Below are positions 16,969 to 24,597 of a stretch of 64,000 nucleotides of DNA, piece by piece. How positions within the stretch are numbered: position 1 is the first letter of the stretch; each line of letters starts with the position of its first letter. Position numbers and translations under genes: made by a program. The stretch comes from Imperialibacter sp. EC-SDR9 (lineage in GTDB: Bacteria > Bacteroidota > Bacteroidia > Cytophagales > Cyclobacteriaceae): positions 1 to 64,000 of the forward strand of contig NZ_LR701576.1 of NCBI RefSeq assembly GCF_902498805.1, in the 5' to 3' direction. The notes under the pieces are model-generated. The model was not told the DNA's origin, ran no database searches, and saw only the letters and a list, made by a program, of their open reading frames with translations.

Positions 16969-17943
16969 ATGAGATTAGCACACATCCTCTCCTTTCTATT
17001 AATGCTTTTGTTCGGCGCTTATCAGGGTCATTCCCACCCAACAAAAAAAGTACTAAAATACATGAAAGGACTGGGTAACGGCACCTACCTGTTCGGGCAA
17101 GTGGGCACATGGGTACACAATGAAAATCCTGACATAGATGATGAAAGCAACTGGGTCAAAAAGGTATACGACCACACAGGAAAAATGCCACGGTACGGCT
17201 GCATCACCTACGACTTTGACGACAATCCATTTACCGATGAAGAATGGAACAACGCAGCCAGGAAAATGTGGGACAGGGGAATGATTGTGGGCATTTATAG
17301 CTGGTACGCCAATCCTGCCGGAGGCAAATGGAACGACCCACTTGACATCGACCCTATTTTCGCCGAGGGTGACAATCCGACCAAATCAAACTTTTACAAA
17401 CAAATGGATCGCATGGCAGCCAACCTCCAATGGCTGGAAAACCAGAAAATCCCGGTTGTCTACACGCCTTTCGTAGAAAGCGACGATAAAAATAAGTGGC
17501 ACGCCAAAGAAGGGGCTGAACATGCCATTAAGCTCTACCAACTGGTGCACGACTACTTCACCAAAACCAAGAAGCTGAAAAACATCATTTGGGCTTACCA
17601 TACCACACAGAGACAAGGTGCTCTGATTGACTACTACCCGGGCGATGCTTATGTAGATGTCATTGGAAAATCAGCCTATGGAACAGGCCTGGTATTTACT
17701 GAATACGACTGGGCAGTGGAAAAGAAGGAAAATAAAGGCAAAATAATCTGGTGGGCAGAATTAGGCATCAGAGGCGAGAAAGATGCACCGAGAGATTGCC
17801 TGGATGTACTCGACAAGTTGGAAAGCACCTTCCCTGAGCTAGCAGGGTTTGTCTTTTGGAGTGACACCGGCTTCTACAACGTCACTGGAAATTTGCACGG
17901 AGCTGAACTGATGAACTCCCCGAAAATTGTGACATTAAAATAG
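16969..17943 (+). CDS. Exported glycoside hydrolase, GH26 (beta-mannanase)-like
   Basis: 324 residues with a signal peptide (about 1-22, cleavage near GHS-HP). The fold pattern is that of GH26: an early HxW-type stretch, GQVGTWVHNENPD, then IVGIYSWYANPAGGKW, VVYTPFVESDDKNKWHAKEG with a candidate acid/base Glu, and IIWWAELGIRG with a candidate nucleophile Glu, ending GFVFWSDTGFY. Such enzymes cut beta-1,4-mannans or related glycans outside the cytoplasm. The family call is from motif layout, and the exact substrate is uncertain. Confidence 0.7.
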   Translation: MRLAHILSFLLMLLFGAYQGHSHPTKKVLKYMKGLGNGTYLFGQVGTWVHNENPDIDDESNWVKKVYDHTGKMPRYGCITYDFDDNPFTDEEWNNAARKMWDRGMIVGIYSWYANPAGGKWNDPLDIDPIFAEGDNPTKSNFYKQMDRMAANLQWLENQKIPVVYTPFVESDDKNKWHAKEGAEHAIKLYQLVHDYFTKTKKLKNIIWAYHTTQRQGALIDYYPGDAYVDVIGKSAYGTGLVFTEYDWAVEKKENKGKIIWWAELGIRGEKDAPRDCLDVLDKLESTFPELAGFVFWSDTGFYNVTGNLHGAELMNSPKIVTLK

Positions 17944-18030
17944 TTAGAGGTTGCAGCTTCGGTTTGCCAGAAGCATAACCATTTCAGGGTATCCTTGCGC
18001 ATGGTTAACTGAATCCCAGCGACTCCAACA

Positions 18031-19143
18031 TCACACCTCGATCTTCCTATCTCTGGCTATCACCTTCCATTCGCCAGTCACTCTCCCTTTTTGCACTGTA
18101 TTAACTCTTTCATAAAGTGCTACGGTTGGGCAAATATGAAAAGGCAGCCCGTACAATACATCGCCCACCTTGTAGCCATGCCCTTCACCAGCTTCGAGCA
18201 CCAGGTGCTCTTCGCTTTGCCCAACGGGCTTCAGGTCAGGCGCATTGAGAAAGTGAACTCGGTTAGTGAGAATATTCTCGGAGGCAATGGATTTATGCCC
18301 AAGGTCTGTACAGATTCTGGTTTTTGTAGGCAAGGAAATCACACGGGAAACGACCAACGCAGCAGGCACAAAGGGCTGCTCTGTGCAAATATCGCTATAA
18401 CCCTTGTCCCAATAAACAAAAGTACCGGGGCAGCATATTACATCCTTCCGCTGTGCATGAATGGGGAATGTTGGCGAGCCTCCAGCCAGGATGACGGGCT
18501 CAGGAAAACCGAGCTGTTGAATATCAGTTTTTAATTTCTCCACTGCCGCAAAGGCTGCGTTGCAAGCTTTGGTTCTTTCCGCAATATCAACTTGTCTATG
18601 CTGGCCGTCGTACACATGGAAGCCTACCGGAACGATGCCCTTCATGGTGGCTACCTTTTCGTAAAGGGCGACAGCTTCCGGGCCTGGTATAATACCCGAT
18701 CTGTCGTTGCCGTTATTCACGTCCATATAGGCATTGATGCGAAGCCCCTGATCGGCAAAGGCAATAGATATGTCCTGAGCCGATTGGGCGTTGTCGTAAA
18801 GGCAGGAGTAGGTCGTCGTCGGATATTTTCTAATCAATTGCAGGAACCGTGTCAGCTTAGGTCCTGTGGGCTGATAAGCCAGCACCACGTCCTGCGCCCT
18901 GACCATCCCCAGCATTTCTGCCTCGGCTATGGTGGCGCATTTAAATTTCTTGATGCCTTCATCCATGAGCATTTTGCACACCTCCTTCGCCTTATTGGTC
19001 TTTACATGAGGTCGCAGCCTGTCTACATCGTCGATTATGCTCTTCACCCCTTTGATGTTCTCACGCACTCTTTCCGGGTACACGACCATGGCTGGCGAAT
19101 CAAGCTCATCTATATTGTCAATTGTATACCATTCACTGCTCAT
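18031..19143 (-). CDS. D-threonine-aldolase-fold PLP enzyme, probably a D-serine dehydratase
   Basis: 370 residues, alanine racemase-like barrel plus C-terminal beta domain. Lys48 in RPHVKTNKAKEV is the PLP lysine. Near the C-terminus the metal motif is GLPFHICPT with His336 and Cys338. In eukaryotic D-serine dehydratases the zinc is held by His-x-Cys, whereas D-threonine aldolases use His-x-Asp, so this protein has the dehydratase-type pair. It is last in an operon after RidA (11-base gap) and a GntP-family permease. A dehydratase releases 2-aminoacrylate, which RidA hydrolyses, so the three fit together as D-serine uptake and breakdown to pyruvate. The substrate is inferred. Confidence 0.8.
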   Translation of the reverse strand: MSSEWYTIDNIDELDSPAMVVYPERVRENIKGVKSIIDDVDRLRPHVKTNKAKEVCKMLMDEGIKKFKCATIAEAEMLGMVRAQDVVLAYQPTGPKLTRFLQLIRKYPTTTYSCLYDNAQSAQDISIAFADQGLRINAYMDVNNGNDRSGIIPGPEAVALYEKVATMKGIVPVGFHVYDGQHRQVDIAERTKACNAAFAAVEKLKTDIQQLGFPEPVILAGGSPTFPIHAQRKDVICCPGTFVYWDKGYSDICTEQPFVPAALVVSRVISLPTKTRICTDLGHKSIASENILTNRVHFLNAPDLKPVGQSEEHLVLEAGEGHGYKVGDVLYGLPFHICPTVALYERVNTVQKGRVTGEWKVIARDRKIEV

Positions 19144-19154
19144 TGCTCTCTCAG

Positions 19155-19634
19155 TTATTTTAATTCAAAAAGTGCCTCAATTTCCACGGGGATGTTCTCG
19201 GGCAGCATACCCATCCCCACTGCGCTCCTCACGCCAATACCATTTTCCTCCCCCCACACCTTTGCAAACAGTTCACTGCAACCATTGATTACATAAGGGT
19301 GGCGGTCAAAAGCGGGCACTCCGTTTACCATACCCAGCACTTTAATCACCCGTTTTACTTTCTCAAGACTGCCAAGGTTGGTCTTGATGGTCGAAAGGAT
19401 CGTCAAACCCACCTGCTGAGCAGCCAATTTGCCCTGCTCAACATCCAGCTCACCTCCTACCTTGCCAAAAATCAGGGTGCCGTCTGTTTTTACAGGCCCG
19501 TGACCAGACACGTACAAGTGCCGACCATCAATAAGGAAGGGCTTGTACACCCCTTTGGGTGCCGGAGGTGGAGGCAATTCAAGGCCCAATTGGGCAAATC
19601 TTTCGTCAGCAGTCATTCGATATCCAATTTTCAA
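19155..19634 (-). CDS. RidA/YjgF family enamine-imine deaminase
   Basis: 159 residues, slightly longer than classical RidA because of an N-terminal extension (LGLELPPPPAPKGVYKPF). Core features are VSGHGPV, a central helix pair, and the terminal GVRSAVGMGMLPENIPVEI with the Arg and Glu that contact the substrate carboxylate and water in RidA proteins. It hydrolyses 2-aminoacrylate and similar reactive enamines made by PLP dehydratases. The second gene of the GntP-RidA-PLP enzyme operon; starts at 19634 or 19616 are possible. Confidence 0.85.
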   Translation of the reverse strand: MKIGYRMTADERFAQLGLELPPPPAPKGVYKPFLIDGRHLYVSGHGPVKTDGTLIFGKVGGELDVEQGKLAAQQVGLTILSTIKTNLGSLEKVKRVIKVLGMVNGVPAFDRHPYVINGCSELFAKVWGEENGIGVRSAVGMGMLPENIPVEIEALFELK

Positions 19635-19674
19635 TTGTTAGTTTCAAAATCCTCAGTTCTACGCTGAATGGGAA

Positions 19675-20988
19675 TCATATAAACAAGTCGATCAGCAACA
19701 CCACAGCCATACCCACCACAGAAACAACAGTTTCCATCAGCGACCATGAAAGAATGGTGTCTTTGATGCTCACGTTGAAGTATTCTTTATACATCCAGAA
19801 GCCAGAGTCGTTGACGTGTGAAAACATCAGGCTACCAGCGCCGACAGCCAGCACCATGAGGTTAGGGTCAACACCGAGCTGCGGCATAATTGGCGCCAGT
19901 ATCCCCGCAGAGGTTAGTCCAGCCACGGTAGCAGAGCCAATGCAAACTCTGATAAAAGCTGCTATCATCCAACCCAGAATCAGAGGATGAATATCCATGT
20001 TTTGAAGTAAAGCCCCTATCTCAACACTCACTCCGCTGTCGCTAAATACTTGTTTCAAAGCGCCTGCACCTCCAACAATCAGCAGAATGGGAGCAACGTC
20101 TTTAATGGCCTCTGTGTAGTAGCCCATCACCTCGCTCATTTTCTTTTTGTAAGCAAGCCCAATGGAGTAGGTAGCAACAGCCAGCGAAATGATCATTACA
20201 ATGGTGGCGTCAGAAAAGAAGGAAACCACTTTAGCTGTGCCTCCCGAAAAGTCACCAAATCTATTCAGCAGTGCCGCACCGGCCAGCAAAACTACCGGCA
20301 GCAGCGCAGAAAAAAAGCTGGTGAACCCACTTGGAAGCTGATCGTCAGGCAATGGCTTAGCCTGAAAAGTGGCCAGCGGCTTGGAGTCGATTCCCTTCAG
20401 TGTACGGGCAAATATTGGTCCGGCGACAATGATGGTTGGCACCGCCACGATAAACCCATACAAAAGCGTTAGGCCCATATCTGCATTGAGCTGACCAACC
20501 AGCGCAGCGGGTGACGGGTGGGGTGGCAAAAACCCATGAGTCACAGATAACGCTGCGAGCATCGGAATTCCAATATAAACGGCAGGCAGCTTGTACTGGT
20601 AAGTCACCGAAAAAATAAGCGGCACCAGCAGCACGAAGCCTACATTATAAAACAGGGGAATACCCACCACAAAGCCGGTAGCCATCAATGCCCACTGTAT
20701 GTTTTTTTCTCCAAAGGAGCTCATCAGCACCTGGCTGATTTTTTGCGCAGCACCACTTTCTGCGACAAGCTTACCCAACATGGCACCGAGGCCGATTACG
20801 ATGACAAGATCCCCAAGGAGCCCACCAATACCCTTTTGCACAGAACCCGCCACATTTTCAAGGGGGATGCCCAGCGCCAAACCGGTGCCAATGGAAACTA
20901 CAAGGAAGGCCAGAAATGGATTGACCTTGCCCCAGGTGATCAGCAGAACCAACACAAGGATGCAAAGCAGGATGATGAATATCGACAT
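19675..20988 (-). CDS. GntP-family permease (gluconate/D-serine:H+ symporter type)
   Basis: 437 residues with about 12 hydrophobic segments. Family motifs include FLPPHPSPAALVGQ (about 173-186), GGAGALKQV and CIGSATVAGLTSAGI. The GntP family includes gluconate transporters and the E. coli D-serine permease DsdX. Here it heads an operon with RidA and a D-serine-dehydratase-type enzyme, so an amino-acid or hydroxy-acid substrate such as D-serine is a reasonable guess. It sits divergently from the PhyH gene with a 223-base intergenic region. Confidence 0.86.
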   Translation of the reverse strand: MSIFIILLCILVLVLLITWGKVNPFLAFLVVSIGTGLALGIPLENVAGSVQKGIGGLLGDLVIVIGLGAMLGKLVAESGAAQKISQVLMSSFGEKNIQWALMATGFVVGIPLFYNVGFVLLVPLIFSVTYQYKLPAVYIGIPMLAALSVTHGFLPPHPSPAALVGQLNADMGLTLLYGFIVAVPTIIVAGPIFARTLKGIDSKPLATFQAKPLPDDQLPSGFTSFFSALLPVVLLAGAALLNRFGDFSGGTAKVVSFFSDATIVMIISLAVATYSIGLAYKKKMSEVMGYYTEAIKDVAPILLIVGGAGALKQVFSDSGVSVEIGALLQNMDIHPLILGWMIAAFIRVCIGSATVAGLTSAGILAPIMPQLGVDPNLMVLAVGAGSLMFSHVNDSGFWMYKEYFNVSIKDTILSWSLMETVVSVVGMAVVLLIDLFI

Positions 20989-21211
20989 GGTTAAAAGTAG
21001 GTGAGTTATAATTGAAATTGGAAGATAACAGAATTACTCGCTGGTGCCAACAAAAATTATCCGGGGAATCCACCAAACCAGCGCACAGTTACCATTGATG
21101 TATTCACATGGCCAGTCGAAAATACCTGTGACAGAATTTATCTGGCTGGCACTCCAATCCATCATTTTGTTTGTAAATTGGCTACTACTGAACACCCAAA
21201 ATTTATACCTC

Positions 21212-22069
21212 ATGACACATGTCTTGTCAGACAAAGAAGTTCACTCCTATCAACAGGATGGTTTCGTTATCGTCAAAAAACTCTTTAGTACCCCCGAAAT
21301 TGACAAGCTTTACAAGGTAGCTACGGGCGACCAGGTGATGAAAGAGAATGCCGTTGACCTGAACGACCAAACGGGTAAAAAAACCAGGCTCACACTTTGG
21401 TTCAAGCCCGGCGATGACATCTACAGTTTGCTGGTGCGAAGTGAGCGAATGGTGAAGTCCGTTGAGAAGCTTCTTGATAGCACTTCCCCTGTTTGCCACT
21501 TCCATTCTAAGCTGATGCAAAAAGAGCCTAAGGTTGGTGGTGCCTGGGAATGGCATCAGGACTATGGTTATTGGTACAAAAACCAGTTTCTATATCCGGA
21601 ACAACTCACCAGCGTAATGATCGCCCTCACCGAAGCCAACAAAGCCAACGGGTGTCTTCAGATCATCAGGGGGTCACACAAAATGGGCCGTGTCAACCAC
21701 GGCTTCACAGGCGAGCAGGTGGGAGCAGACATGGTGATGGTGGATCACGCTTTGGCGACACTGGAGCATATGTATGTGGAGCTACAACCTGGCGACGCCC
21801 TCTTCTTCCATCCTAATCTCTTACATCGGTCGGAGGCCAACACATCTGACAGCCCCCGCTGGTCACTTATTTCTTGCTACAACTCACTTTCTAACCCAGC
21901 TTACAACGACGATTCTCTGGGATGGCGTGAACCAATTTCGATGGTGAACGATGATGCGCTGATGAAGGCCGCAGCCGTCGGAGCTACCTCTCAGTCCGAT
22001 TTCCTGAAAAAGGAAAAAGACCCTGCACTAAAAGAAACAGGCTGGGAAAAAGAGGTCGTCACGAAGTAG
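21212..22069 (+). CDS. Phytanoyl-CoA dioxygenase (PhyH) family protein
   Basis: 285 residues from the ATG at 21212. The frame is open to 21044, but the upstream part is intergenic-like and the family normally begins near the motif SYQQDGFVIVKKLF. Fe(II) ligands are visible: HQD in WEWHQDYGYW and the distal His in FHPNLLHRSEAN; an Arg that would bind 2-oxoglutarate follows in SPRWSLIS. These enzymes hydroxylate small substrates with O2 and 2-oxoglutarate. It heads a plus-strand group with a nucleoside-type permease and a Gfo/Idh/MocA oxidoreductase, suggesting catabolism of an imported sugar-like or nucleoside-like compound. Confidence 0.82.
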   Translation: MTHVLSDKEVHSYQQDGFVIVKKLFSTPEIDKLYKVATGDQVMKENAVDLNDQTGKKTRLTLWFKPGDDIYSLLVRSERMVKSVEKLLDSTSPVCHFHSKLMQKEPKVGGAWEWHQDYGYWYKNQFLYPEQLTSVMIALTEANKANGCLQIIRGSHKMGRVNHGFTGEQVGADMVMVDHALATLEHMYVELQPGDALFFHPNLLHRSEANTSDSPRWSLISCYNSLSNPAYNDDSLGWREPISMVNDDALMKAAAVGATSQSDFLKKEKDPALKETGWEKEVVTK

Positions 22070-22118
22070 AACTACGCATCAAATAATTGACTTTTAACAA
22101 CTAACATCTCAGCTACAA

Positions 22119-23309
22119 ATGAAGCTAACTACCGGTATTTCACTTTCCATTATGATGCTCCTCGAATACTTCGTGTGGGGCGCCTGGTATGTAACCATGG
22201 GCACTTATATGTCAGAACACCTTGGGTCAACCGGCATCCACATCGGAGCCGCCTACAGTGCCCTGGCCATTGCCACCATGATTTCACCGTTTTTTGTGGG
22301 TATGGTAGCCGACAGGTTCTTTGCCGCACAAAAAATCATGGGAGTACTTCATCTACTCGGAGCGGCATTGCTGTTTCTTGCCACCCAGGTAGCTGATAAC
22401 TCTTCTTTTTATTGGATCATCATGGCCTACTCATTGCTCTACATGCCGACCATCGCCCTCTCCAACAGCATTGCCTTCGGGCAAATGACCGACCCTGGCA
22501 AGCAATTCCCCTGGATCAGAGTGTTCGGAACCCTTGGCTGGATTGTGGCTGGCTTGATGATTGGCTTTTTGGGCATTGAAAAAACGCCTTCCACCTTCGT
22601 AATGGCGGCCGTAGTTTCTGCTGTACTTGGCGTATTTAGTTTTATGCTACCCAACACGCCACCGAAGGGTGGTGAAGATGCCTCAGCAGCACTGGGTACA
22701 GAAGCTTTCGTCCTCTTCAAAGACAAGCCCTACCTGATCTTCTTTGTCGCTGCCATTTTGGTGTGTATCCCGTTGTCGTTTTACTATGGCTTTGCCAACC
22801 CCTTTCTTAACGATGTCGGGATGGAAAACGCCGCTTCCAAAATGACCCTGGGACAGGTGTCTGAAGCAGTATTTATTCTCGCCATTCCTTTCCTGTTCAA
22901 CAGCATAGGGGTAAAGAAAATGCTGCTACTCGGCATGGCTGCCTGGATTCTCCGCTACGTGTGTTTTGCTTACGGAAATGTAGACGCTGGCATGTGGATG
23001 CTCTACGCAGGGATCATCCTTCATGGTATTTGTTACGACTTCTTCTTCGTCACAGGCTATATGTACACAGAGAAGAAGGCAGGGGCAAAAATCAAGAATG
23101 CAGCCCAGGGGCTATTCACATTTGCTACCTACGGCGTAGGCATGACAATAGGCACCTGGTTCTCAGGCTACGCAGTGGACATGTATACCACTGACGGCGT
23201 GAAAGACTGGACAAGTATTTGGTGGGTACCAGCCTTTATTGCCATTGGTGTGATGATCTATTTCATCCTTTTCTTCCGAGAGAAAAAAGAGGTAAAGGTA
23301 GCGGCTTAG
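22119..23309 (+). CDS. MFS permease of the nucleoside:H+ symporter (NupG-like) family
   Basis: 396 residues, about 12 membrane helices. N-terminal motif LEYFVWGAWYVTMGTYM and the loop FPWIRVFGTLGWIVAG are characteristic of NHS-family transporters (NupG/XapB). It lies 49 bases after the PhyH gene and about 95 bases before the Gfo/Idh/MocA gene on the same strand. In Bacteroidota, such permeases often stand beside sugar oxidoreductases; the substrate here may be a nucleoside or a sugar derivative. Confidence 0.83.
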   Translation: MKLTTGISLSIMMLLEYFVWGAWYVTMGTYMSEHLGSTGIHIGAAYSALAIATMISPFFVGMVADRFFAAQKIMGVLHLLGAALLFLATQVADNSSFYWIIMAYSLLYMPTIALSNSIAFGQMTDPGKQFPWIRVFGTLGWIVAGLMIGFLGIEKTPSTFVMAAVVSAVLGVFSFMLPNTPPKGGEDASAALGTEAFVLFKDKPYLIFFVAAILVCIPLSFYYGFANPFLNDVGMENAASKMTLGQVSEAVFILAIPFLFNSIGVKKMLLLGMAAWILRYVCFAYGNVDAGMWMLYAGIILHGICYDFFFVTGYMYTEKKAGAKIKNAAQGLFTFATYGVGMTIGTWFSGYAVDMYTTDGVKDWTSIWWVPAFIAIGVMIYFILFFREKKEVKVAA

Positions 23310-23342
23310 TGTTATGAGTGCTTCCAATAGAAACAAAATCCA

Positions 23343-23364
23343 GGGCCTGTCCCCTGACAGGCCC
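23343..23364. repeat. Perfect 9-bp stem hairpin between permease and oxidoreductase genes
   Basis: GGGCCTGTC and GACAGGCCC separated by CCCT. It lacks a T-run, so it may stabilise the mRNA 3' end of the permease part or act as a weak terminator rather than a full stop. Confidence 0.5.
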
Positions 23365-23403
23365 TCATCGAAACTTGAAATGAACATTTAACCTACTTCG
23401 ACG

Positions 23404-24597
23404 ATGAGAAAACTAGCTATGCTTGGTGGCGGTTTCATTGGCCGCTTCTACACTGACTCCATTCAGGGCTACCGCAACAAAGACAAGGTGGTAAGCATAT
23501 ATGCCCGCAGAGAGGAAACCGCTACTCAGTTTGCCAAAGACTACGACGTAAAACACTGGACTACCGGTATGGAAGAGGCCATTGCCCACCCCGAAGTGGA
23601 TGTGGTCTGCGTAGCACTTCCTAACAACCTCCATGAGCAAGCGGTGTTGCTCTGCTGCAAACACAAAAAAGCAGTCATTTGCACAAAGCCATTGGCCCGA
23701 AATGCCGCTGAAGCCAAACGCATGCTGGAAGCTGTGGAAAAAGCAGGCATTTTTGCAGGCTATCTTGAAGACCTGGTTTATACACCCAAGCACATCAAAG
23801 CTCACGAAAGCGTAATGAATGGTGCTTTGGGCCGTATCCTTTGGGCAAAATCGAGAGAAACACACCCGGGGCCGCACAGCAACTGGTTTTGGGACATGGA
23901 GCAGGCCGGTGGCGGCTGTATGCTCGACTTGGGCTGTCATTGCGTGGAAATTGCCCGCAGCTACATCGGCAAAGACATCAGGCCGGTGGAAGTGATGTGC
24001 TGGGCCGATACCCAGGTAAAGCCTATTGATGCAGAAGACCATGGCATAGCCCTGGTGAAGTACGAAAACGGTGCTATTGGTCAGTTTGAGGTCAGCTGGA
24101 CATTCCGGGGAGGCATGGACTTAAGGGACGAAGTGATGGGCACCGAAGGCACCATCTGGATCAACAGTTTCCTGCGTACCGGCTTCGAAATGTTTACTAC
24201 CGGCAAGGGGGCAGACTATGTGGCTGAAAAAGCGGAAAGCAACACTGGCTGGTTATTTCCGGTTGGCGATGAAATGAATGAGTTGGGCTACAACCACATG
24301 TTCATGGACATGTTCGATGCCATAGAAGAGGGCAGGCAAGCCAAAGAAACGTTTTATGATGGCTATGTGGTCAACTGTATCCTCGATGCTTGCTATAAGT
24401 CAGCCAAAACCAAGCAATGGGAACCTGTGCAGCTCGACATTTGGCGTGGTAAGACAGGTGTGACTAGAGACGGCCATCTGGTAGAATACGACGCTGATCA
24501 CTACCTGGTGAAAGAGGAAATGACTCACTATGGAGCCAAAAAACTTATCCTAAAGGAGAAAGCAACCGGGAAGTTTATAGAGCGAGTGGAGAAGTAA
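23404..24597 (+). CDS. Gfo/Idh/MocA family oxidoreductase
   Basis: 397 residues. The N-terminal Rossmann fold starts [13 protein letters not shown], the family lysine is in [14 protein letters not shown] (about 96-109), and the substrate-domain motif [16 protein letters not shown] (about 175-190) supplies the usual Asp and His pair. These NAD(P)-dependent enzymes oxidise or reduce sugar and cyclitol derivatives. It is the third gene of the PhyH-permease-oxidoreductase group. Confidence 0.85.

Follow-up and report, generated by a model that had tools for sequence, protein, structure and literature searches.

What does a small operon that joins a GntP-family permease, a Rid protein and an enzyme dependent on pyridoxal 5'-phosphate (PLP) take up and break down? 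The operon lies in Imperialibacter sp. EC-SDR9 (Bacteroidota; assembly GCF_902498805.1), in positions 1 to 64,000 of contig NZ_LR701576.1, a 64,000-nucleotide stretch referred to below as the window. An earlier note rightly placed these three genes, one encoding a PLP enzyme with a His336-x-Cys338 motif, in an operon at 18031-20988, and read it as serving D-serine uptake and breakdown; the set is compact and lies on the minus strand. We put at roughly 55% the probability that what the operon imports and dehydrates is instead a 2-amino-2-deoxy-sugar acid, with D-glucosaminate (GlcN1A) or its N-acetylated form (GlcNAc1A) the likeliest candidate. We favour this reading because of the dehydratase residues of the enzyme, the parallel with OngC and OngD of the ong pathway, genes of the 2-keto-3-deoxygluconate (KDG) route and GH20 genes as partners in other genomes, a GntT-like permease, and co-occurrence with an M19 peptidase.

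Catalytic residues of the PLP enzyme

The PF01168 domain, Lys48 and structure-model matches place the enzyme in fold type III (alanine-racemase-like), and it is the single PF14031 match in the genome. Its metal motif (His336, codon 18138-18136, and Cys338, codon 18132-18130, in the context P-F-H-I-C-P-T) is invariant in all 121 aligned relatives (120 distinct sequences). Since it is so kept, and since the gene order GntP-Rid-PLP enzyme is found again in many related loci, the motif is not a chance reading. Mapped on AxDTA, the D-threonine aldolase of A. xylosoxidans, the window enzyme has Lys48, Arg148, Gln184, Glu311, His336 and Cys338, as against Lys59, Arg157, His193, Asp321, His347 and Asp349 (AxDTA numbering) in the four solved aldolases (AxDTA, BhcC, and the Filomicrobium and Chlamydomonas D-threonine aldolases). 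Chicken D-serine dehydratase (DSD) and Delftia D-threo-3-hydroxyaspartate dehydratase (DTHADH) have Lys, Arg, no His, Gln, His and Cys at the same positions. The metal ligands of AxDTA are His347 and Asp349 and its base is His193, while in DSD and 3LLX the ligand pair is His/Cys and there is no His193 (PMC4401734).

The His-x-Asp pair of a D-threonine aldolase is therefore absent from the window enzyme, the site of the aldolase base is occupied by Gln184 (His is found there in 5 of the 121 relatives), and the combination of His-x-Cys ligands with no His193 equivalent is that of DSD. Two remoter Bacteroidota sequences (L162 and L163, 27-29% identity) carry the full aldolase signature, so these residues separate the two kinds of enzyme within the phylum too. 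Because His-x-Cys is invariant and the His193 equivalent is missing, the case for a dehydratase as the predicted activity is much stronger than that for an aldolase. The preference of the earlier note for a dehydratase is borne out by the same motif, by Gln184 in place of His193 and by the neighbouring Rid protein with its deaminase Arg. DTHADH also has His-x-Cys, and Dsd1p accepts several beta-hydroxy-D-amino acids (PMC8071972), so the motif fixes the chemistry but not the substrate.

Phylogeny and fold

In an unrooted tree of 53 rows (IQ-TREE, LG+C20), 26 rows of the subfamily formed a clade of their own on a very long stem (support 100/100), and six rows with aldolase residues formed another (100/97). 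A branch with support 100/99 parts these two clades from DSD, DTHADH, 3LLX and the other His-x-Cys rows; the branch of chicken DSD is long. The subfamily is not nested among the characterised D-serine dehydratases. Relative to the aldolase branch, the His-x-Cys rows all fall on the same side, so a single ligand change suffices.

The AlphaFold model of the enzyme (pLDDT 95.5, pTM 0.92) was compared with solved structures in VIA-align 2, giving Z 40.5 and a root-mean-square deviation (rmsd) of 2.1 over 354 aligned residues for AxDTA, Z 38.8 and rmsd 2.4 over 355 for chicken DSD, and Z 37.5 and rmsd 2.3 over 352 for DTHADH. Profile A1 gave 164 bits for AxDTA and 117 bits for DSD in hmmsearch, and the BhcC aldolase model gave the window enzyme only 95.8 bits against a cut-off of 690. 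Overall similarity was considered as an arbiter between aldolase and dehydratase and set aside, as phmmer, hmmsearch, Foldseek and VIA-align rank both close together; a similarity that leans to the aldolases does not decide function, and residues and gene neighbours had to do so. Chicken DSD (3ANU) and Delftia DTHADH (3WQC) resemble the window enzyme in fold, in the PLP Lys and Arg, in His-x-Cys and in having no His193, but are 22-24% identical to it (Foldseek alignments), belong to another clade and have Gln where it has Glu311. The aldolases (4V15, 7DIB, 7YQA) and BhcC (6QKB) share its fold and its side of the tree and give the top profile score, but their His-x-Asp and His193 are missing from it. 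We conclude that the protein is probably a PLP- and metal-dependent D-beta-hydroxy-amino-acid dehydratase of a Bacteroidota subfamily. The phrase 'D-TA family PLP-dependent enzyme', its usual label, gave no match in a search of the open PubMed Central literature.

KDG-route and GH20 genes beside the operon

A 2-amino-2-deoxy-D-gluconate that loses water and ammonia is expected to yield KDG, and genes for its further breakdown were sought in 122 distinct loci: 80 named loci (L060-L139), 39 sampled ones (L178-L217 less L198) and L218-L221, minus one duplicate (L183 = L137). The last four were added after the pattern had been noticed in three loci of one genus (g13), to complete that genus. L198 was excluded since the open reading frame filter had dropped its enzyme, and L102 and L126 lack an enzyme row in the 121-row alignment for the same cause. 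In the named loci a neighbour was counted as present anywhere in the stretch, and contig ends cut many stretches.

KDG-route genes stand in or near the operon in seven of these loci (L065, L070, L106, L195, L197, L217 and L219). In L065 a KDG-kinase-like fragment and a 2-keto-3-deoxy-6-phosphogluconate (KDPG) aldolase gene precede the PLP enzyme and an M19 peptidase gene; L070 has the order GntP-Rid-PLP-kinase-M19, with the KDG-kinase-like gene between enzyme and M19; and in L106 aldolase and kinase genes converge on GntP-Rid-PLP-M19. The enzymes of L065 and L070 are 58-59% identical to that of the window. Genus g13, which belongs to the same class as the window's organism, has SusC-SusD-GntP-Rid-kinase-aldolase-PLP-M19 in four of its seven loci (L195, L197, L217, L219), and in all seven a GH20-type gene and a divergently oriented gene for a DeoR-type regulator lie beside the operon. 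Because these arrangements differ among L065, L070, L106 and g13, the linkages would represent about four separate events. By chance, about half a kinase would be expected within six genes over the 122 loci (assuming 2 kinase genes per genome, the number in the window's genome, and about one gene per 1.2 kb).

The aldolase assignments rest on PF01081 in L197 and L065 and on equivalog or subfamily cut-offs that were reached in L106 and L065 and narrowly missed in L197, and those of the kinases on PF00294. L197 also matched PF00728, SusD and TonB-receptor models, and the other g13 loci were assigned by BLAST to L197. GH20 genes recur outside g13: a Pedobacter locus (L132) has SusC-SusD-alpha-fucosidase-GH20-GntP-Rid-PLP-M19, a genome of the window's own family (L216) has GH20-GntP-Rid-PLP-M19, and L082 has a weaker GH20 match ahead of Rid. 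In the window's genome, KDG-kinase-like (39%) and KDPG-aldolase-like (46%) genes lie side by side at G000:C57:7398-9155, and there are two GH20 matches, neither near the operon. KDG-kinase, KDPG-aldolase and GH20 genes would be useless for D-serine breakdown and would fit a 2-amino-2-deoxy-aldonate.

Other neighbours were seen in individual loci. A GMC oxidoreductase gene (by Pfam in L111, by neighbour cluster in L125) and a gluconate-2-dehydrogenase-subunit-3-like gene (PF13618 in both) lie upstream of the module at L111:1659-4033 and L125:694-2994, and might supply oxidised sugar acids locally. A second type of cluster (L184:1801-9239, L188:2248-9233, L214:7715-12660) combines a 3HCDH-like dehydrogenase, a class III aminotransferase (PF00202), M19 and the PLP enzyme, with Rid (PF01042) in L184 and L214 and a ceramidase-like gene (PF04734) in L184 and L188. 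L121 and L133 have a fatty-acid-hydroxylase-family gene, an SDR gene and a 3HCDH gene between enzyme and M19.

Co-occurrence with an M19 peptidase

Relatives of the enzyme were collected by searching genome contigs with profile A1. At least 589 contig stretches encode one, and the best 80 of these, for which organisms were checked, are all from Bacteroidota where a taxon is named and 50-63% identical to the window enzyme. The commonest further partner of the operon is an M19 peptidase (PF01244, the model having been run on one member). Where the enzyme is flanked by 3 kb or more on either side (61 stretches, the window included), Rid is present in 45, M19 in 40 and GntP in 29; the corresponding counts in 42 enzyme-bearing stretches from sampled genomes, plasmid matches and genus g13 (one of which repeats a named locus) are 27, 27 and 20. 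By NCBI annotation, a Parabacteroides distasonis plasmid carries genes for a gluconate:H+ symporter, DUF4833, RidA, a D-TA family enzyme and a membrane dipeptidase, and a Hymenobacter plasmid carries the last three of these. Among the 60 plasmid relatives listed there is also a Vibrio plasmid protein at 22% identity.

Of 296 Bacteroidota genomes, 22 have both the enzyme and M19, 8 the enzyme only, 3 M19 only and 263 neither (thresholds of at least 448 bits for M19 and at least 267 bits for the PLP subfamily). The count excludes eight genomes that lack a subfamily PLP enzyme but have M19 at 257-322 bits; with them the M19-only class would rise to 11. Fisher's p of 1e-23 is not a true probability, as the genomes are related. 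The two genes are direct neighbours in 17 of the 22 genomes, are separated by one gene in 2 and lie apart in 3, among them the window's genome, where the M19 orthologue is not in the window but at G000:C21:848-1915 (contig 21) and is 80% identical to a Pedobacter protein. The M19 metal motif (M-F-x-I-D-A-H-L-D) stands almost at the protein start and leaves no room for a signal peptide, for which reason M19 is read, by eye, as cytosolic.

An S41-peptidase gene (PF03572) lies just upstream of M19 at G000:C21:213-1924 (L143), and S41 genes of another kind lie 3' of M19 in L122, L124, L133, L135 and L203. The idea that an ancestral cluster had been split, traced through S41, was abandoned: the L133 S41 gene has no BLAST match (1e-6) to that of the window's genome and is of another kind.

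The permease and the Rid protein

The permease is 46% identical to GntT of Escherichia coli K-12, followed by IdnT (42%), YjhF (40%), GntP (36%), GntU (34%), DsdX (31%) and YgbN (31%), so that by identity five of the six other E. coli members of the family are nearer to it than DsdX; by bit score DsdX (219) is slightly above GntU (217). In a tree of the permeases it joins GntT, IdnT and GntP (96/92), with DsdX, GntU, YjhF and YgbN outside, although several of the E. coli branches are long, and it is as long branches that DsdX and GntU come together. The DsdX model gave it 234 bits against a cut-off of 618, and the closest E. coli paralogue is not DsdX but GntT. The link that the earlier note drew to the D-serine permease DsdX finds little support here. 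The protein is GntT/IdnT-like and probably imports an aldonate-like acid. Five more GntP-family matches (26-31% identity) occur in the genome. The E. coli dsdX-dsdA operon likewise sets a GntP-family permease beside a PLP dehydratase, but its permease is DsdX whereas that of the window is GntT-like. DsdA belongs to another PLP fold type.

Four solved proteins match the Rid protein (3d01, PA0814, 2otm and ACIAD3089). Its substrate-binding Arg (Arg136 counted from the TTG start) is present and aligned in the 3d01 and PA0814 alignments. This Arg is the hallmark of the deaminating Rid subfamilies (PMC4433059); PA0814 and ACIAD3089 belong to subfamily Rid1, and Rid1-3 proteins deaminate 2-aminoacrylate in vitro (PMC5619798). 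The conserved Arg and the PA0814 and ACIAD3089 matches suggest that the protein is probably a Rid1-type imine/enamine deaminase. The earlier note was right that a Rid protein adjoins the enzyme; its name for it, RidA, is probably not the proper one.

Comparison with the ong pathway

In Pseudoalteromonas prydzensis, OngA is a hexosaminidase compared with GH20 enzymes, the outer-membrane step runs via TonB-dependent receptors, OngB deacetylates GlcNAc1A, and OngC, described as a fold-type III PLP enzyme, deaminates GlcN1A, giving KDG and ammonia, and accepts D-serine and D-threonine as well; growth on GlcNAc1A requires the RidA-family protein OngD, and KdgK phosphorylates KDG (PMC9537276). Like the operon in the window, this pathway (OngOT, OngA, OngIT, OngB, OngC, OngD, KdgK) combines a transporter, a PLP dehydratase and a Rid protein; the TonB-type receptor, GH20 and KDG-kinase-like genes recur in some Bacteroidota loci, and the ong clusters of Vibrio, Klebsiella and Serratia have a KDPG aldolase gene too (PMC9537276). 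It differs in having the SSS symporter OngIT where the Bacteroidota module has GntP, the D-aminoacylase-like OngB where M19 is the recurring hydrolase neighbour, and the 127-residue OngD where there is a Rid1-type protein of about 155 residues. Because GntP, M19 and Rid1 stand for OngIT, OngB and OngD, the module is not classed as an ong cluster, although it would work like the ong pathway. With respect to the ong arrangement of a dehydratase beside Rid and KDG kinase, Rid is adjacent in the window and a KDG-kinase-like gene lies elsewhere in the genome, with linkage in the 7 of 122 loci described above. The complete ong pathway has been reported only in Gammaproteobacteria and one Betaproteobacterium (PMC9537276). 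In the main text of the OngB paper (PMC12017989), neither 'Bacteroid' nor 'dipeptidase' occurs, and the titles and abstract starts of the open PMC literature yielded no relevant paper on a glucosaminate dehydratase with GntP in Bacteroidetes.

Built on the observed gene content, motif, clade, gene-neighbour conservation and likely KDG kinase and KDPG aldolase genes, the proposed scheme would run as follows. The GntP permease would import an aldonate-like anion. Should this anion be N-acylated, the M19 hydrolase from contig 21 would free its amino group, the task of OngB in Pseudoalteromonas. The PLP enzyme, whose metal His336 and Cys338 would hold, would bind the D-configured C2 amine as an aldimine and eliminate the C3 hydroxyl. 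Hydrolysis of the released enamine or imine, with help from the Rid1 protein, would give KDG and ammonia. A KDG kinase and a KDPG aldolase from elsewhere in the genome would then take KDG to pyruvate and glyceraldehyde-3-phosphate.

Alternative readings

Several observations weigh against an amino-aldonate as substrate. No KDG-kinase match was found in 115 of the 122 loci, and no KDG-route gene or GH20 stands beside the operon in the window. The best single-function matches of the linked kinases are to KDG/KDGal kinase models, all below their cut-offs, and routes for uronates and gluconate use KDG kinase and KDPG aldolase as well. Overall sequence and fold of the PLP enzyme are slightly nearer to aldolases than to dehydratases, OngC is not among the rows of the tree, and, given the second type of cluster (L184, L188, L214), substrates may differ within the subfamily. 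The window enzyme might also have a specificity of its own: at residue 181, three before the aldolase base position and a site that may tune the active site, it has Gln (Y-D-G-Q, codon 18601-18603) where 118 of the 121 relatives have His (Y-D-G-H), and Gln recurs there only in the congener L144 and in L063. M19 enzymes are known as dipeptidases, and no report of a sugar-acid deacetylase among them was met in the literature. Finally, AA10 lytic polysaccharide monooxygenases are the usual source of GlcNAc1A, and a search for this family found one in 1 of 296 Bacteroidota genomes and none in the window's; users of the module would therefore depend on fragments oxidised by others, on another oxidation or on another 2-amino-aldonate.

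The D-serine route of the earlier note, in which GntP would be a D-serine permease, the PLP enzyme a D-serine dehydratase and Rid the deaminase of 2-aminoacrylate, appears rather unlikely. It draws on a His-x-Cys pair like that of chicken DSD, on the 2-aminoacrylate deaminase activity of Rid1 proteins in vitro (PMC5619798), on the membership of DsdX in the GntP family and on the deamination of D-serine by OngC (PMC9537276), and by analogy with OngC the window enzyme may take D-serine as a side substrate. As the substrate of the operon, however, D-serine is disfavoured by a permease that resembles most of the other E. coli paralogues more than DsdX, by an enzyme not joined to DSD in the tree, by the KDG-kinase-like, KDPG aldolase and GH20 genes that accompany the operon in several lineages, and by the M19 partner, which is unexplained unless peptides supply D-serine. 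That last partner, found in 40 of the 61 well-flanked stretches, would be accounted for by salvage of other beta-hydroxy-D-amino acids (of the D-threonine, D-allo-threonine and beta-hydroxy-aspartate or -asparagine types) freed from peptides or natural products, as M19 dipeptidases free C-terminal D-residues. Such salvage is also an improbable function: it leaves the KDG-route and GH20 partners and the GntT-like permease unexplained, and there is no peptide importer among the annotated neighbours, most neighbour clusters being unannotated. That the enzyme is of the D-threonine aldolase type, as the database label says, is very unlikely. The higher profile score and Z for AxDTA than for DSD and the position of the subfamily on the aldolase side of the tree speak for it, but the enzyme has Gln184, Glu311 and His-x-Cys where the four solved aldolases have His193, Asp321 and His-x-Asp, and an aldolase would make no enamine for the Rid partner.

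Arrangement of the locus

The three genes run head to tail in the order GntP-Rid-PLP enzyme (Table 1), and with intergenic gaps of only 58 and 11 nucleotides they are likely to form one transcript. The Rid reading frame as listed begins with TTG at 19634, but the downstream ATG is the likelier start. Both flanking genes, at 16969-17943 (GH26-like, PF02156) and 21215-22069 (PhyH, PF05721), run in the opposite direction, so the operon in the window comprises three genes. Divergent from it, genes for a PhyH-type dioxygenase (PF05721), a nucleoside-permease-like major facilitator protein (PF03825) and a Gfo/Idh/MocA oxidoreductase (PF01408) at 21215-24597 probably form a separate unit. A scan of 17900-21300 gave 4 promoter-like sites against 4.1 in shuffles, and 5 terminator-like sites against 3.6; as promoters of Bacteroidota deviate from the sigma-70 consensus, neither result was used.

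Table 1. Positions of the operon genes and of key codons in the window
Feature	Position	Strand	Length	Domains, matches and remarks
PLP enzyme gene	18031..19143	-	370 aa	PF14031 and PF01168; usual label D-TA family PLP-dependent enzyme
Rid gene	19155..19616	-		PF14588 / PF01042; likely ATG at 19616
GntP-family permease gene	19675..20988	-	437 aa	TIGR00791, 489.9 bits; PF02447
His336-Ile-Cys338 metal-ligand motif	18130..18138	-		aligned with AxDTA His347/Asp349
Codon of the conserved Rid Arg (Arg136 from TTG), equivalent of RidA Arg105	19227..19229	-		alignment to 3d01 and PA0814

Implications

We tentatively suggest, as a wider possibility that we hold with less than even confidence, that Bacteroidota have a widespread and independently assembled route for 2-amino-2-deoxy-aldonates, in which a cytosolic M19 protein would act as sugar-acid de-N-acylase, the His-x-Cys 'D-threonine aldolase' clade as D-glucosaminate dehydratase, and a gluconate-type symporter would feed both. 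In many of the loci examined, the labels RidA, gluconate symporter and membrane dipeptidase would then hide a common purpose. If the proposal is true, a pathway known from Gammaproteobacteria would extend to Bacteroidota with different parts. Should the operon act on D-glucosaminate or GlcNAc1A, a type of substrate new to M19 peptidases would be added to theirs, and many Bacteroidota would live as consumers of oxidised amino-sugar fragments that other organisms produce.

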